NCBI RefSeq assembly: GCF_007671725.1
Contig: NZ_VCNM01000002.1
Location: forward strand, 372,001-436,000
Reading direction: 5' to 3'
Source of the DNA: Halorubrum depositum
GTDB taxonomy: Archaea; Halobacteriota; Halobacteria; Halobacteriales; Haloferacaceae
Length of the DNA: 64,000 nt
Under the pieces are notes generated by a model. That model had not been told where the DNA came from. It searched no databases and was given only the letters and a program-made list of their open reading frames with translations. A program made the position numbers and the translations under genes. Shown here piece after piece: positions 16,819 through 24,871 of this stretch. How positions within the stretch are numbered: the first letter of the stretch is position 1; every line of letters starts with the position of its first letter.

Positions 16819-17611
16819 GGTGGTCTGTACGCGGTGTGCGTCGATCGTAATAAAGGATGATGAGTATCGAGCCCGTTCGGCCACAGCTTCAGGCGGGACC
16901 CGGCGGTATCGACGCGTATGTCAGGAGACGACGCCTCGACCGCGCGACCCGTGTTTCTGAAATAACTAAAAAATTACATTTTCTTCTTAATACCATATAG
17001 GACATATTAATGGGAGTTGCCATCACCGTGTCAGACATCCCCAGACGACGGTCGCATGTACCACGGAATCAGCGACGTGAAATCGCGCCGTCGACGAGAT
17101 ATCAAGCCATCGACGAAGGGGCCGCGCCAGCCGCGTCGTGATCGTCGCGGAGCACCGCGACCGGATCGGGTTCCGATCACGCTCTTCGTTTCGATTCGAG
17201 CCGTTTTCGGAGCGGATCGGGTTATTCAGCAGCGACGGCGACGTACGGCCCGTGGTGTTCATCGGCGAGTCGGACCCCGGTTTCATCAACTCCCAGCGTG
17301 GTTCGGAACTTGGTCGTTCCCTGGCTGTAGGTCAGCTCTGTGAGCGCAGTCGCGAACGGTAGCCCGAAGCCGACTGGTGCGGCAATATATAAAAACTCAG
17401 TACTGTATTCAAAATTTATAATTATCGGGATTGAGCCGAACCTGAGGTGCATCGACGGTCGGGGCGTTGCACCCCGGTTCGCGAGCTCCGCGTTGGTTTC
17501 GACTCCACGGCCGTGACGTCCGTTAACGGATTCCGGGTTCGCTTTTCCGGGGAGGACGACTCCGAATATGTTCGGGGGAAGAAACGCGGGGGCCGGGCGC
17601 GGACTGAACGT
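16819..17611. other. 793-base intergenic region without a convincing gene
   Basis: Two AT-rich patches occur, at about 16965-17012 and 17370-17432; the rest has ordinary GC content but no good open frame. On the minus strand a 76-codon frame (17222-17452) ends L-T-Y-S-Q-G-T-T-K-F-R-T-T-L-G-V-D-E-T-G and looks partly protein-like. An AT box at about 17372-17385 lies inside it and could drive only a shorter version. It may be a gene remnant. No promoter for the heme synthase at 17612 is obvious. Confidence 0.5.
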
Positions 17612-18982
17612 ATGGATCCGCCGCGGCTCACGACGCTGTTGACCTGGTCGGTCGCGGGGACGTATCTGCTCGTCGCGCTCGGGGCCACGGCCGCCACGGA
17701 GGTCGGCTCTGCGGTCGCCGCGGTCCACCACGTTGCGGCGGTGGTCGTCGGCGTCCTGCTCGCCGCCACGGCGCTTCTCGCCCGCCGAACGGCGGCCTCG
17801 CGTCGCGTCCGCGTCGGAACGATCGCGGTCCTGCTCGCGTATCTGGGACAGGCCGGCGTCGGGCTCGCGGGCCGCACCGGCGTCGTCCCGTTCGACGGCG
17901 GAGTGCACCTGTTGGGAGGGATCGGCGTCTTCGCGGTCCTCCTCGCGACGCTCGTGATACGAGTGGAGGCGACGACGAGCGGTCCGGGGGTGGAGATGAC
18001 GACGAGCGACTCGGCCGGCATCGGTGACCGCGGAGCGTCGAGCGCGGCCGACTGCGACGCCCCGACTGCAACGACCGAACGCGACGCGCTCACAGTTAGG
18101 AGTCGACTTCGGGCGTACCTCGAGCTGACCAAGCCCCGGTTGATGTGGCTGTTGTGCCTGCTCGCGCTGGCGGGGATGGGGCTGGCCGTCGCCGCCGGCG
18201 CCGCGCTCGACGGCGTGACCGTCGTCGCGACCCTCGCGGGCGGCGTCCTCGCGATCGGCGCGGCGGGCGCGTTCAACCACGTGTACGAGCGCGACCGCGA
18301 CCGCAAGATGCGGCGGACCGCGGATCGTCCGATCGCGACCGATCAGGTCGGCGTCGGCCGGGCGATCGGCTTCGCCGTCGCGCTCGTCGTCGCCTCGATG
18401 GCGGTCCTCCTCGCGTTCGTCAACGCGCTCGCGGCCGCGCTCACGGCGGCGGCGGTCGTCTACTACGCGTACGTGTACACGGTCCTGTTGAAGCCGACCA
18501 CGCGGTGGAACACGGTGATCGGCGGGGGATCCGGCGCTCTGCCGGCTCTGATCGGGTACGCCGCGGTGACGGGGACCGTCGGCCTCCCGGCGGTCCTGCT
18601 CGCAGTCGTCGTCTGCTGTTGGACCCCCGCGCACTTCTACAACCTCGCGATCGCCCACCGCGAGGACTACGCGCGGGCCGACTACCCGATGCTGCCGGTG
18701 GTCGCGGGGGTCGCGACCGCGCGGCGGCGGATACTCGCGTGGCTCGGCGTCACCCTGATCGCCGCGGTCCTGCTGGGGGCCGTCACCGAGCTCGGCGTCC
18801 TCTACGCGCTCACCACCACGGCGCTCGGAGCGCTGTTCGTGCGGAGCGTCGCCCGACAGTACGACGTCGGCCGGCAGGGGGCCGACGACGTACGGGCCGC
18901 CGCCTACCGGAGCTTCCACGCCTCGAACGCCTACCTCGGGGCCCTTCTCGCGGCCATCCTCGTGGAGACGCTCGCGGTGTGA
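17612..18982 (+). CDS. ctaB: Protoheme IX farnesyltransferase (heme O synthase) with CtaA-like N-terminal half
   Basis: This integral membrane enzyme adds a prenyl tail to heme B to make heme O for heme-copper oxidases. Residues 1-125 form about four helices resembling half of heme A synthase (CtaA/COX15), followed by a hydrophilic linker of about 45 residues. The UbiA-type prenyltransferase domain then begins Y-L-E-L-T-K-P-R. Its first Asp-rich motif reads N-H-V-Y-E-R-D-R-D-R-K-M, followed by R-R-T-A-D-R-P-I; the second region contains A-R-A-D-Y-P-M-L-P-V-V. The ATG at 17612 is used because the upstream frame is not protein-like. It lies directly upstream of the oxidase subunit genes, so it probably supplies their hemes. 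Confidence 0.9.
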   Translation: MDPPRLTTLLTWSVAGTYLLVALGATAATEVGSAVAAVHHVAAVVVGVLLAATALLARRTAASRRVRVGTIAVLLAYLGQAGVGLAGRTGVVPFDGGVHLLGGIGVFAVLLATLVIRVEATTSGPGVEMTTSDSAGIGDRGASSAADCDAPTATTERDALTVRSRLRAYLELTKPRLMWLLCLLALAGMGLAVAAGAALDGVTVVATLAGGVLAIGAAGAFNHVYERDRDRKMRRTADRPIATDQVGVGRAIGFAVALVVASMAVLLAFVNALAAALTAAAVVYYAYVYTVLLKPTTRWNTVIGGGSGALPALIGYAAVTGTVGLPAVLLAVVVCCWTPAHFYNLAIAHREDYARADYPMLPVVAGVATARRRILAWLGVTLIAAVLLGAVTELGVLYALTTTALGALFVRSVARQYDVGRQGADDVRAAAYRSFHASNAYLGALLAAILVETLAV

Positions 18983-19053: not shown

Positions 19054-19209
19054 ATGAGCAACCGTACGACACGCGACGACGGGGATGTTCCCGCGATGCA
19101 ACGCCTCTACAACCGGATCTGGCTGTTGGCCGCGGCGGCGATACTGTTCTTCCTCGTTGCCTACGTCGGATGGGGGTTGCTCGACATCCTGTCGCTGCCC
19201 GCGAGGTGA
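19054..19209 (+). CDS. 51-aa single-helix membrane protein of the oxidase cluster
   Basis: This small gene has a hydrophilic N-terminus (M-S-N-R-T-T-R-D-D-G), then one hydrophobic helix at about residues 22-44 (W-L-L-A-A-A-A-I-L-F-F-L-V-A-Y-V) and a short tail. It ends six bases before the subunit II start and so is part of the oxidase operon. Single-helix accessory subunits accompany ba3-type and related heme-copper enzymes. Assignment as such a subunit is inferred from position and topology. Confidence 0.75.
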   Translation: MSNRTTRDDGDVPAMQRLYNRIWLLAAAAILFFLVAYVGWGLLDILSLPAR

Positions 19210-19215
19210 GATCCC

Positions 19216-19758
19216 GTGAGCAACCCACTCGAAGACCCCGACGACGACTGGTGGAACTCCCCGGTGAACCGCCGCGAGAGCATCTGGCTCGGACTCGCTG
19301 GCGCGTGGTCGCTCGGCATCTTCACGTGGATGGCCGGGTTCACGCAGTTCGGCGATCAGAACCCCATCGGGACGACGTACGACGTCGACCCCGAGGAGTA
19401 CCAGGCGCGCGTCGGCGAATACAAGGAGACCACCGAGGAGACCGACGACGGGCTGATCCCGCCCGGCGACGACGTGTACGTCGGCGCGATGCGGTTCAAC
19501 TGGGACGGGCTCCCGGTCGTCCTCGAAGCGGGCCGCGAGTACGACATTCATCTCGGCGCCTACGACGTCCAGCACGGATTCTCCGTCAGGCCCGAGGAGA
19601 ACCTGAACAAGCAGATCAACCTCCAAGTGTTCCCGGGCTCCGAGTGGGTGATCCCGATGACGTTCGACGAGCCGGGCACCTACCACGTCGTCTGTAACGA
19701 GTTCTGCGGACAGGGGCACCGGACGATGCACGGTCGCTTCACGGTGGTGGAGGGGTAG
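19216..19758 (+). CDS. Heme-copper oxidoreductase subunit II with CuA site
   Basis: This subunit receives electrons at a binuclear CuA centre and passes them to subunit I. It has 180 residues: an N-terminal membrane helix (about 23-42) and an extracellular cupredoxin domain. All CuA ligands are present: H120, C160, E162, C164, H168 and M171, in C-N-E-F-C-G-Q-G-H-R-T-M. The short, one-helix form resembles ba3-type subunits. The start is GTG at 19216, six bases after the small membrane gene. It ends one base before the subunit I start, so translation is probably coupled. The donor is likely a halocyanin, a blue copper protein, but none is in the window. Confidence 0.95.
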   Translation: MSNPLEDPDDDWWNSPVNRRESIWLGLAGAWSLGIFTWMAGFTQFGDQNPIGTTYDVDPEEYQARVGEYKETTEETDDGLIPPGDDVYVGAMRFNWDGLPVVLEAGREYDIHLGAYDVQHGFSVRPEENLNKQINLQVFPGSEWVIPMTFDEPGTYHVVCNEFCGQGHRTMHGRFTVVEG

Positions 19759-19759
19759 C

Positions 19760-21484
19760 ATGTCGGCGATCGCCTCGCTGTTCCGGAACGACTACGGCGC
19801 GGACGGGTTCCGCGCGTGTTCGGTGACCGGGCTCGACGTCCACCGGTCCGTGGAGAACTACGTGAAGCTGTTCGGGCTGACTGCGGTGATCGCGCTCGCC
19901 GTCGGCGGGAGCTTCGCCTTCTCCGTCGCGATGACCCGCTGGGAGTTCGTCGGCCTGCTCGACGCGAGCAGCTACTACACGCACCTGAGCATGCACGCGT
20001 GGAACCTGCTCATCTTCTGGATGGTGTTCATGGAGATCGCCGTCCTCTACGTCGGCGGCCCCATGGTGCTCGGCCGGGAGCTCCCGCTCCGCCGGCTCGC
20101 CGCCCTCGGCTGGGTCACGATGGTGGTCGGCGCGATCGGTGTGAACGCGTCCATCTGGCTGGCCGAGGCGCCGAACGAGGCGCCGCTTTTGACAGCGTAC
20201 GTCCCGCTGCCCGTCACGCCGTGGTTCTACGGCACGGCGATCGTCTTCCTGCTCGGGGCGACGATCGCGGCGCTCCCGTTCTTCGCGACGATCTGGTCGG
20301 AGACGCGCGACAGCGACAGGACGCTCCCGCTCGTCGCCTTCGGCGCGTTCGTCACGGGAATCATCGCCGTGGAGGCGATCCTCGGCGGCATCGCCGCGTT
20401 CGCGTACGCGCTCGCGTGGCGGATCGACCTCATCGCCTCGGTGGACCCGGGCATCTACCGACAGCTCTACTGGATCATCGGCCACGGGAGCCAGCAGATC
20501 AACCTGCTCGCGATGATCACGGTGTGGTACTTCCTCACGCACGTCGTGGGGGGCGCGGTCGTTGTCTCCGAGAAGATATCCCGGACCGCCTTTATCCTCT
20601 ACCTCTTCTTCATCAATCTCGGGGCGGCCCACCACCTGCTCGTCGACCCCGGCATGTCCGCCGGCTGGCGCATCTGGAACACCTCCTACGCCTTCTACGG
20701 CGCGGCGTTCGCGAGCATGATCCACGCGTTCGCGATCCCGGCCGGGATCGAGGCCGGGCGCCGCCGGCGAGGACAGGGCGGCGGGCTGTTCGGCTGGCTC
20801 ACCTCCGCGCCGTGGCGGAACCCCGTCTTCGCCGCGACGATCTTCAGCATCATCCTCTTCGGCTTCCTCGGCGGGATCACCGGCGTCGTAATGGGCCAGA
20901 TCCAGGTGAACATGACCTGGCACAACACCCTCGCGACGGTGGGACACTTCCACGCCACCGTCGCGCTCGGGACGACGCTCGCGTTCTTCGGGCTCGTCCT
21001 CTTCGTCATCAAGACGATGTTCCGTCGAGACTTCGTCTCGGACGCGCTCGCTAGCGCGATCCCGTACGCCTACGGGGCCGCGATGAGCGTCGCCACGCTG
21101 ATGCTCATGTACGCGGGGATCCTCTACGGCGTGCCGCGCCGGACCGCCGAGGCCGTCAGGAACATCCCCGGCTCGGAGTTCAGCTTCGCGGCCGCGGTCC
21201 CGATATTCATGATCTTCGGGGTCTTCGCGCTGTTGGCGATCCTCTCCGGCGTCCTGTTCGTCGGCGTCTCGGTCGGCTCGCTGCTGTTCGGCGACCGGCT
21301 CCCCGACGGCGACGATGGGGGGATGCTCCCCGAGGGCGGGCTCCACGCCGACGGCGGCGAGCCGGTTCACGCGGTCGAGCTCCGGGGGACGTTCGCGCTC
21401 TGCCTGATCTTCCTCGGCGTCTTCGCCGCCGTCTACGTGCTGAACTGGTACCTGTTGACCCAGCTGTGGGCGATCGGCGCGTAG
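19760..21484 (+). CDS. Heme-copper oxidoreductase subunit I lacking the cross-linked tyrosine (NO-reductase-like active site)
   Basis: The catalytic subunit has 574 residues and about 13-14 membrane helices. Conserved ligands are H79 (helix II, low-spin heme), H242 (helix VI, CuB), H291-H292 (helix VII, CuB), and H396 and H398 (helix X, hemes). The helix-VI motif is W-I-I-G-H-G-S-Q-Q. In O2 reductases of types A and B it reads G-H-P-x-V-Y, with the Tyr four residues after His covalently joined to it. Here that residue is Q246. NO reductases also lack this tyrosine, so NO reduction is plausible, as is a modified oxidase. Automatic annotation will probably say cytochrome c oxidase subunit I. 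It sits in one operon with the CuA subunit. Confidence 0.93.
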   Translation: MSAIASLFRNDYGADGFRACSVTGLDVHRSVENYVKLFGLTAVIALAVGGSFAFSVAMTRWEFVGLLDASSYYTHLSMHAWNLLIFWMVFMEIAVLYVGGPMVLGRELPLRRLAALGWVTMVVGAIGVNASIWLAEAPNEAPLLTAYVPLPVTPWFYGTAIVFLLGATIAALPFFATIWSETRDSDRTLPLVAFGAFVTGIIAVEAILGGIAAFAYALAWRIDLIASVDPGIYRQLYWIIGHGSQQINLLAMITVWYFLTHVVGGAVVVSEKISRTAFILYLFFINLGAAHHLLVDPGMSAGWRIWNTSYAFYGAAFASMIHAFAIPAGIEAGRRRRGQGGGLFGWLTSAPWRNPVFAATIFSIILFGFLGGITGVVMGQIQVNMTWHNTLATVGHFHATVALGTTLAFFGLVLFVIKTMFRRDFVSDALASAIPYAYGAAMSVATLMLMYAGILYGVPRRTAEAVRNIPGSEFSFAAAVPIFMIFGVFALLAILSGVLFVGVSVGSLLFGDRLPDGDDGGMLPEGGLHADGGEPVHAVELRGTFALCLIFLGVFAAVYVLNWYLLTQLWAIGA

Positions 21485-21565: not shown

Positions 21566-22255
21566 ATGACCGACGCTTCACGAACGACTCCTCGGACGCG
21601 ACTCGGCGGTACCGTTCGCCAGGCCTGGCGCGACTTCCTGAGCGTCTACTACGCGAACACGCCCGTCTGGCGCTGGCTGAAGAGCGGCGCGCTCGTCTTC
21701 CTCGGGCTCTTCCTGTGGATGGGCGGGAACGTCCTGTCGGCCTACTGGATAGACGCGACCGCGCTGCGGTACGCGATCGCCTACGGCTTCGTCCTGATCG
21801 CCTGGGGGCCGCTCACGCACGTGTTCGTCGTTCCGACCGTGATCCGCCTGCGGCGCACCGCCGAGAGCCCCGCCGTACGACGGATCGTTCGCCACGGGTC
21901 GAAGATCAACTTCGCGACGTTCCTCGTGATCGTCGCGGTCGCGGGGACGCTCGCGCCGGGCGTGATGCTGCTCGACTTCTCGTCAGGGTTCGGCGCGGAC
22001 GGCGGCGACGTGACCGCGGAGCTCGTCTGCGACACCGACGGCGACCCGGTCACCTGCGAGCTCGAGACGTCCGAGGGCGTCGACCACGTCGTGCTCCTCG
22101 CCGGCGGCGACGAGATCGACCGGAGCGACGAGCCGCCGTACGCGGTGTCGGCCCCGCGCGAGTCGCTCTCCGACGGACCGTCCGGAAAACAGTTCGAGAT
22201 CGAGTTACGAGACGCGGACGGAGAGACTCTCCGACGGTTCGTCCGGACCGTTTGA
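21566..22255 (+). CDS. Membrane protein of the oxidase cluster, unknown family
   Basis: This 229-residue protein has three hydrophobic helices (about 38-58, 66-90 and 113-137), then an acidic C-terminal domain of about 85 residues predicted to be beta-rich and outside the membrane. That domain has two cysteines (V-C-D-T-D-G-D-P-V-T-C). I recognise no family. It follows subunit I by 81 bases on the same strand, so it may be an extra subunit or assembly factor of the complex. It is convergent with the copper ATPase gene, whose stop is 45 bases away. Confidence 0.75.
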   Translation: MTDASRTTPRTRLGGTVRQAWRDFLSVYYANTPVWRWLKSGALVFLGLFLWMGGNVLSAYWIDATALRYAIAYGFVLIAWGPLTHVFVVPTVIRLRRTAESPAVRRIVRHGSKINFATFLVIVAVAGTLAPGVMLLDFSSGFGADGGDVTAELVCDTDGDPVTCELETSEGVDHVVLLAGGDEIDRSDEPPYAVSAPRESLSDGPSGKQFEIELRDADGETLRRFVRTV

Positions 22256-22300: not shown

Positions 22301-24871
22301 TCACTCTCGCAGCACCGAGCGCGTCGAGTTCGTCACGACCACCGCGCTGCTGGCGGCCATCGCCAGCGCGGCGAAGAAGGGGTTGAGCGCGCCCGCGACC
22401 GCGAGCGGAACGGCCACGGCGTTGTAACACAGCGCCCACGCCACGTTCTCTCGGATGCGCCGCCGCGTCCCGGCCGCGAGGTCGAACACGGTCTCGACCG
22501 CGCGCAGGTCCTCGCCGGTGATCACGGCGTCCGCGGCCTCGACGGCGCGGGCCGTCCCGTCGCCCATCGCGATCCCGAGATCGGCCGCCGCGAGCGCCGG
22601 CGCGTCGTTCGTCCCGTCGCCGACCATCGCGGTCGTGCCGGCGGCCGCGAACCCCCGGATCGCCTCAAGCTTGCCGTCCGGTGGGACGCCGGCGAAGACC
22701 TCGTCCACCGCGTGGTGGTTCCGGAACCGGTCGGCGCGCGGGCCGTCGTCACCGGTCAGGACGACCACCTCCCGGTCGGCGAACGCCGCGAGCGCCTCGT
22801 CCCATCCCTCCCGGTCGCGGTCCTCGACGGCGATCACCCCGCGGGCCGCGCCGTCCCACCCTACGACGACCGGCAGCGCGCCCCGATCCGCGACGCCGTC
22901 GACGCGGTCTCGCAGGTCGTCGGGGACCGGGCCGCACTCGCGTTCGATCAGACCGAGAGTCCCGACGACGACGCGCGTGGCGGTCGTTCGGTCGCCCGAC
23001 GCGCTCGTTCGGTCGTCGGACGCGGTCGTTCGAGCCTCGGAGGCGCCGCCGGCGACGAGCTCCCCCGAGATCCCCGCGCCGGGGTGCCGTGTAAAGGACT
23101 CGACCGTCGTCTCGTCGAGGCCGCCGTCGGTCGCCGGCCGGTCTTCGGTCGTCGGCCGCCCGCCGCTCGCCGCCTCGCGGATCGCGTCCGCGACGGGGTG
23201 ATCGGCGCGGCGTTCGAGCGCGGCGGCGCGCCGGAGCGTCCGGTCGTCGCCGTACGTCGCGCCGACGCGCATCTCCCCCGCGGTGAGCGTCCCGGTCTTG
23301 TCGAAGACGACCGTCTCGGTCTCCCGCGCGACTTCGAACACCGAGGAGTCGGTGACGACGACGCCGCGGGCGAGCGCGTCGCGGAGCCCGCCGGAGACGG
23401 CGAGCGGGGTCGCGAGTCCCATGGCGCACGGACAGGAGACGACGAGGACGGTCAGGCCGGCGAGCATCGCGGCCGCGACCGTCTCGCCGGTCGCGAGCCC
23501 CCAGCCGGCGACGAGCAGTCCGAGCGTCAGCACGACCGGCACGAATACGGTCGCGAGCGCGTCGACGAACCGCTGGACGCCCGGCGCGGCGGTCTGAACC
23601 TCCCAAAGGGCGGCGGCGAGGCTGTCCGCGGTGCTCTCCGCGTCCTCGCCGACCCGCATCACGACCGCACCGTCGGGTCCGCGCTCGTCGGGCCCGCGCT
23701 CGTCGGCGTCGCCGACGTCACCGAGCAGAGTCGCGCCGCCGATCACGGGATCGCCGGGCTCCTTTCGCACCGGGAGCGACTCCCCGGTGATCACGGACTC
23801 GTCGGCGTCGGCGGTCCCCTCGATCACGGTGCCGTCGATCGGGACGGGCTCCCCGGGCGCGACCCGGACCCGGTCGCCCGGTTCGAGGCCCGCAATCGGG
23901 ACGGACTCGGTGCCGGTCGGGGTGAGCCGCGTGGCCGACTCGACGCGGGCGGCCGTGACGGTTTCGAGGAGGTCGTTGGCCCGCGATCGGACCCGTCGCT
24001 CGTAGTACCGGCCGAGCGAGACGACCATCACGACGGCGACCGTCACGTCGTAGTAGAGGTGCGTGCCGCCGGTCGCGAGCGCGAGGGTGCTGTACGCGTA
24101 CGCGGACAGCGCGGCGACCGCGACGAGGAGGTCCATGTTCGGCCGCCGCGCCCGGACGCTCACGTACGCCCCCCGCAGGAGCGGCGCGCCCGTGTACGCC
24201 AGCAGCACGGTCGTGAGGACCGCGATGAACGCGAGCGGGAGATACCGGCCGACGGCCGTGGTCGCGTCGATCGCGAGGACGTTCGCCTCGATCCCGAGGT
24301 AGCTCGGGTACAGCGACAGGACGTACCACGGCATGATCAGCATCGAGAGAAACGCGCCGACCGCGAGCCGTTCGACCGCGCGGTCGTCCGGGCGACCCCC
24401 CGCGGGGCCGTCGCCGGCGGGCATCTCGCCCCCGTTCTCCGTCGGCGTCCCCTCGCGGAACCGGAGCGCGTACCCGTAGCCGGAGAGCGCCGCCGGAAGC
24501 TCCCCCCGCTCGATCGTCTCCGTATCGTAGACGACCCGAGCGGTCTCGGTGCCGTAGTTCGCCTCCACCGCGCGGACGCCCGGACGGTCGTCCGCGCGCA
24601 GCCCGAGGAACGCCTCGCAGGTCGTGCAGTGCATCCCGTCGACCGCCAGGTACGCCTCCGCCGCGTCCGGCGGAAGCGCCGTCTCGGTCGTCGCTCGGTC
24701 GCCGTCGGCCGGCGCTTCCCCGAGCCCGTCAGCCCCCGCCTCGGCGTCGTCTACGTCGTCGAGCCGGCGGGCAACCTCCAGGCAGCCGCGGCAGCAGAAC
24801 TCGCCGTCGACGTCGGCCGCGCCGACGGGCGGGTCCGGGGTCGGGAGGTCGCAGAGCCGACAGCGTCCCAT
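22301..24871 (-). CDS. Copper-transporting P1B-type ATPase, FixI/CcoI-like
   Basis: This ATP-driven copper exporter has 856 residues. The N-terminus carries a Cys-rich domain typical of FixI/CcoI pumps (C-R-L-C at 4-7, C-C-R-G-C at 26-30), then an HMA domain with C82-T-T-C85. After four helices come the actuator loop T-G-E-S at 362-365, the intramembrane copper site C-P-C at 480-482, phosphorylation site D-K-T-G-T-L-T at 524-530, and the hinge G-D-G-T-N-D-A-P. FixI-type pumps deliver copper to heme-copper oxidases instead of conferring resistance, which fits the neighbouring CuA/CuB enzyme. Two short repeated inserts occur: E-R-G-P-D twice near 391-400, and R-T-T/S-A-S type repeats in the nucleotide-binding domain. 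Confidence 0.92.
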   Translation of the reverse strand: MGRCRLCDLPTPDPPVGAADVDGEFCCRGCLEVARRLDDVDDAEAGADGLGEAPADGDRATTETALPPDAAEAYLAVDGMHCTTCEAFLGLRADDRPGVRAVEANYGTETARVVYDTETIERGELPAALSGYGYALRFREGTPTENGGEMPAGDGPAGGRPDDRAVERLAVGAFLSMLIMPWYVLSLYPSYLGIEANVLAIDATTAVGRYLPLAFIAVLTTVLLAYTGAPLLRGAYVSVRARRPNMDLLVAVAALSAYAYSTLALATGGTHLYYDVTVAVVMVVSLGRYYERRVRSRANDLLETVTAARVESATRLTPTGTESVPIAGLEPGDRVRVAPGEPVPIDGTVIEGTADADESVITGESLPVRKEPGDPVIGGATLLGDVGDADERGPDERGPDGAVVMRVGEDAESTADSLAAALWEVQTAAPGVQRFVDALATVFVPVVLTLGLLVAGWGLATGETVAAAMLAGLTVLVVSCPCAMGLATPLAVSGGLRDALARGVVVTDSSVFEVARETETVVFDKTGTLTAGEMRVGATYGDDRTLRRAAALERRADHPVADAIREAASGGRPTTEDRPATDGGLDETTVESFTRHPGAGISGELVAGGASEARTTASDDRTSASGDRTTATRVVVGTLGLIERECGPVPDDLRDRVDGVADRGALPVVVGWDGAARGVIAVEDRDREGWDEALAAFADREVVVLTGDDGPRADRFRNHHAVDEVFAGVPPDGKLEAIRGFAAAGTTAMVGDGTNDAPALAAADLGIAMGDGTARAVEAADAVITGEDLRAVETVFDLAAGTRRRIRENVAWALCYNAVAVPLAVAGALNPFFAALAMAASSAVVVTNSTRSVLRE

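Follow-up and report, generated by a model that had tools for sequence, protein, structure and literature searches.

The gene at 19760-21484 of the window (the whole 64,000-nucleotide stretch of Halorubrum depositum DNA that was analysed) can be assigned with high confidence to subunit I of eNOR, a CuA-containing NO reductase related to the B-type oxidases, within the scheme already described for these enzymes. Its product very probably forms N2O from NO and is not an O2 consumer. We infer this activity from published work on the family: the characterised eNOR, that of Rhodothermus marinus, is bacterial, and the activity of the haloarchaeal enzyme is predicted. References for the family include Hemp and Gennis 2008.

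The assignment is made because a Gln in the column of the cross-linked Tyr is diagnostic, and the tree, the co-occurrence and linkage with NirK, and the operon all agree with it. The same evidence supports the original prediction, made from the DNA, that the enzyme may reduce NO, and leaves no need for the alternative raised there of another noncanonical reaction. The prediction had also held that membership of a particular NO reductase family could not be decided. Its NO reductase part stands, but the Gln column does identify the family as eNOR. eNOR is an already known kind of enzyme, reported earlier in Halobacteria, and we regard the family question as settled as far as sequence can settle it.

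The published definition of eNOR rests on a Gln in place of the cross-linked Tyr; the same source names Natronomonas and other Halobacteria among the organisms that have it and notes that such genes often go under the name cytochrome c oxidase (PMC8756737). According to PMC11388526, which cites Murali 2024, eNOR is among four biochemically characterised NO reductase families and reduces NO; that source also describes it as related to the B-type oxidases.

The Gln246 site and the subunit I structure

The features considered here are listed with their positions in the window and their strand.

17447..18982, + strand: heme o synthase (CtaB) that carries a further membrane domain at its N-terminus (residues 207-509 match the NCBIfam heme o synthase model at 7.9e-83)
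19054..19209, + strand: small ORF with a single TM helix, immediately 5' of subunit II (sequence conserved in 29 loci)
19216..19758, + strand: eNOR subunit II, a CuA cupredoxin of 180 aa with a GTG start (Pfam COX2, 1.2e-4)
19760..21484, + strand: eNOR subunit I, catalytic, heme-copper, 574 aa (ORF with an ATG start; Pfam COX1, 6.4e-50; Gln clade, 100/100)
20483..20497, + strand: codons of H242-G-S-Q-Q246, the CuB ligand His and the Gln that replaces the cross-linked Tyr (alignment; Q246 in 64/64)
21566..22255, + strand: eNOR-associated protein of 229 aa, with three TM helices and a C-terminal beta domain (locus conservation; AF2 pLDDT 82)
22301..24871, - strand: copper-type P-type ATPase (NCBIfam heavy metal P-type ATPase, 2.4e-127; a homologue lies near the gene in 36 loci)

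Translation of 19760..21484 gives a CuB helix that reads W-I-I-G-H242-G-S-Q245-Q246-I-N, and all six metal-ligand histidines are kept (H79, H242, H291, H292, H396 and H398). Q245, Q246 and the six histidines are identical in 59/59 close sequences in the alignment, and Q246 is found in 64/64 clade members when the set is widened to Thermus, Thermomicrobium, Defluviimonas and HR23. Thus the GHGSQQ motif, with Gln246 in the place of the Tyr, and the intact set of heme/CuB histidines were both as originally described. In the same alignment the Gln246 column holds Tyr in the A- and B-type references and Glu in cNOR and qNOR, and the cbb3 (ccoN) reference has its Tyr on another helix, in the C-type cross-link column. 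This matches the earlier statement that A- and B-type oxidases have the Tyr here, C-type enzymes have it elsewhere and NO reductases lack it. The C-type column (helix VII, six residues before the His-His pair) is Ile285 in 59/59 sequences, with Leu in Defluviimonas only. As Tyr is absent from both columns (i+4 and C-type), neither known cross-link geometry is possible in the Gln clade.

Judged by its invariance in the 64 clade members, Gln246 is a fixed feature of the family, and a sequencing error or lone mutation at this position is ruled out. A pseudogene is also ruled out: the frame is open, all ligands are present and the operon is kept. Nor can it be taken for an ordinary ba3 gene, since the genome encodes its ba3 elsewhere, with the Tyr. 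No NCBIfam model fits subunit I (the best, CtaD, reaches 44.7 bits where the cut-off is 670.75), and its closest solved sequences are the Thermus ba3 oxidases. The expectation that such a gene would be labelled cytochrome c oxidase agrees with the mislabelling described for eNOR (PMC8756737).

The AF2 model of subunit I (pLDDT 83.3, pTM 0.85) adopts the fold of heme-copper oxidases, with VIA Z scores of 32-33 against ba3 and aa3 subunit I. On the evidence of this model, the fold does not separate an oxidase from an NO reductase. In the alignment, helix VIII (residues 299-327) carries a one-residue insertion compared with all of the A, B, C, cNOR and qNOR sequences used, and N307, Y310, S319 and H322 are invariant in the Gln clade. 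Y310 (64/64) is missing from every reference type (A, B, C, cNOR and qNOR) and adjoins column 311, which is occupied in the A and B types by the conserved Thr of helix VIII and here by Ala (A311). The insertion, together with N307, Y310 and H322, may possibly have a part in the active site or the proton path.

Relatives, tree and comparison with described families

The scan of species genomes for relatives of subunit I gave 60 loci, to which plasmid records added more. Identity to subunit I was 94-96% within Halorubrum (96% for the nearest sequence), 58-87% in other haloarchaea, and 61-64% in Rhodothermus and other Bacteroidota/Rhodothermota; more remote relatives beyond these were also among the 60 loci. 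Plasmid-borne relatives occur in Defluviimonas (41%), Thermus (38-41%) and Thermomicrobium (38%).

The tree was built with columns 243-246 excluded and with A, B, C, cNOR and qNOR references. The 41 Gln sequences grouped together in a single clade (100/100) whose sister group was the nine B-type sequences (100/97), with the A types and then cNOR/qNOR/C outside both. The Gln clade takes in the sequences from Rhodothermus (L054), Thermus, Thermomicrobium and Defluviimonas, and the host's own ba3 (L003), two A-type (L001, L002) and qNOR (L005) sequences fell in their expected groups. A tree had been suggested as a check on the original prediction; it placed the Gln clade beside, and not inside, the ba3 oxidases (100/100), in a sample whose references covered the A, B and C types, cNOR and qNOR. 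In three Gln-clade members from Thermus and HR23 (L065, L068:5983-7668 and L069:6010-7692) Lys stands where the low-spin heme ligand His398 would be (GHFK), so that this heme-copper enzyme would have a heme ligated by His and Lys.

The host gene shares with described eNOR the Gln in the Tyr column, the six histidines, a CuA subunit II directly upstream, a relatedness to B-type oxidases with a clade that lies outside them, and its occurrence in Halobacteria. The Rhodothermus sequence falls into its clade, and among the features compared there was no contrast in subunit I. With ba3 of Thermus thermophilus (1EHK), it has in common the fold (VIA Z 32.4, 2.6 Å over 471 residues, 26% identity), the CuA subunit II and an organisation of two subunits plus a small TM part. 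In contrast, the cross-linked Tyr on the CuB helix that is the mark of B-type O2 reductases (Tyr237 in ba3) is Gln246 here, the two enzymes are in sister clades and not nested, and helix VIII is one residue longer, with N307, Y310 and H322 fixed. The helix VII Tyr of the C-type (cbb3) enzymes is also absent, as noted above for Ile285.

Like cNOR and qNOR, the host enzyme has a non-Tyr side chain in the Tyr column and is predicted to catalyse the same reaction. It differs in that eNOR takes electrons via CuA and not from heme c or quinol, and the two groups are far apart in the tree; Gln and a CuA subunit II are found where cNOR and qNOR have Glu in the column and a heme c or a fused quinol-type N-terminus. 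The bNOR (CuANOR) of Bacillus is a CuA NO reductase derived from the B-type oxidases (PMC8756737 Table A4; PMC11388526). The residue at the site is Asn in bNOR and sNOR and Asp in gNOR (PMC8756737 Table A4), neither of which fits Gln246; on this residue bNOR would be set apart from the host enzyme.

The operon and its companion protein

Subunit II carries the CuA motif C-N-E-F-C-G-Q-G-H-R-T-M, which is kept in 58/58 loci compared, and its H120, C160, E162, C164, H168 and M171 are conserved. The small ORF at 19054..19209 probably encodes a subunit IIa-like part, and a short hypothetical ORF lies 5' of subunit II in bacterial loci too. A CtaB homologue is present in 33 loci, and heme o synthase also adjoins the enzyme in Thermomicrobium and Defluviimonas. 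The N-terminal domain of the host heme o synthase (17447-18982) has four to five helices and two His motifs and, judged by eye, is perhaps CtaA-like, corresponding to half of CtaA; the heme o synthase beside the Thermomicrobium enzyme is similarly long. The copper-type P-type ATPase may possibly supply CuB/CuA, which would link it to eNOR.

The product of 21566-22255 matched no Pfam or NCBIfam family. It was found in 55/58 loci, those of Rhodothermus and Salinivenus among them. We also followed it in a sample of 194 genomes of the host's order, 35 of which have eNOR, spread over 16 of 64 genera. The protein occurs in 34 of these 35 genomes and in 1 of the 159 others, where it is a fragment with a stop; the lone eNOR genome that lacks it (G064) has a truncated eNOR match. 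A search of the Thermus, Thermomicrobium, Defluviimonas, HR23 and L064 loci gave none at E 10. The AF2 model has three TM helices and an eight-strand domain, and a fold search returned weak Ig/FnIII-like matches, none at E 0.001. Because the protein tracks eNOR almost one-to-one and has no Pfam or NCBIfam family, we tentatively propose that it may be dedicated to one eNOR branch, that of the haloarchaea and Rhodothermota, as a third subunit or an assembly factor that has yet to be named. It is the sole part of the locus unmatched to anything described.

NO-related genome context and proposed mechanism

In the same 194 genomes, NirK was present in 34/35 eNOR genomes compared to 66/159 others (Fisher 1.4e-10, a value that overstates independence as related genomes share ancestry). 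qNOR had no such link to eNOR (22/35 compared to 82/159, p 0.26). In 12 of the 35 eNOR genomes the distance from NirK to eNOR is no more than about 10 kb, and NirK-like genes occur in the fetched flanks of 23/58 loci, several Halorubrum species included. Among 100 genomes with NirK, 12 have eNOR with qNOR undetected by the one qNOR query used. The host genome has a NirK that scores over the curated cut-off, on another contig than eNOR, and separate genes for qNOR, ba3 and two A-type oxidases. Its NosZ homologue (G000:C2:499433-501121) scores below the bacterial cut-off; this gene and that of an NnrS-like membrane protein (L006, judged by eye) are ~6 kb apart, ~100 kb from the eNOR operon on the same contig.

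Two Thermus thermophilus plasmids have in common an NO-response block (Rrf2-DUF542-AraC-like) of 1229 bp that is 98% identical (L068:7701-8929 and L082:1-1229). In strain SNM6-6 (L068) it adjoins a Q-type enzyme; in strain AA2-20 (L082) its neighbours are cNOR and a gene annotated as nitrite reductase, which, given what is known of Thermus, is presumably NirS. This arrangement has the appearance of a natural swap, in which one NO reductase was replaced by the other.

Could the enzyme nevertheless reduce O2? A low-efficiency O2 reductase that also takes NO, mainly for NO removal at low oxygen, would be consistent with the B-type fold, with ba3 O2 reductases as the closest solved relatives, with the CuA subunit II, and with NO reduction by eNOR under microoxic conditions, as reported in PMC11388526. 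We consider it very unlikely, however, given that the cross-link Tyr is gone in all family members, that the association with NirK is strong, and that the genome already has three dedicated oxidases. The invariance of Tyr310, its absence from the reference types and its place beside the helix-VIII Thr column would suit an ordinary O2 reductase in which a different Tyr, most likely this one, is catalytic instead. Yet Tyr310 lies neither at i+4 nor on helix VII, where the known cross-links are made, the inserted residue shifts helix VIII, and the genome context favours NO, all of which make an oxidase of this kind extremely unlikely.

What might an NO reductase of the eNOR family do with a Gln at this site? 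The cross-linked Tyr of oxidases gives an electron and a proton for O-O cleavage. As NO reduction cleaves no O-O bond, the Tyr would be dispensable in eNOR, and Gln246, which cannot form a Tyr radical, would occupy the site that Glu has in cNOR and qNOR. We propose that an extramembrane donor, for instance a halocyanin, delivers electrons to CuA of subunit II, from where they pass via the low-spin heme (H79/H398) to the high-spin heme (H396)/CuB (H242, H291, H292) centre, which would couple two NO to give N2O. Protons would probably arrive by a modified K-type channel, as suggested by the alignment, in which Y257, S319 and H322 are invariant, E21 of subunit II is conserved and the helix-VIII Thr has become A311; energy may therefore be conserved. 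The sequence, ligands, clade, operon and co-occurrence are demonstrated by the present analysis; the electron donor, proton path, heme type and coupling are predictions. In the host, eNOR would remove or respire NO from NirK, beside the separate qNOR.

Should the protein prove to be a dedicated companion of eNOR, it could serve as a marker and would offer a new part for study. Haloarchaeal records of the eNOR gene are prone to name it a cytochrome c oxidase. Where eNOR is mislabelled in this way, the denitrification and N2O potential of saline systems is therefore undercounted.
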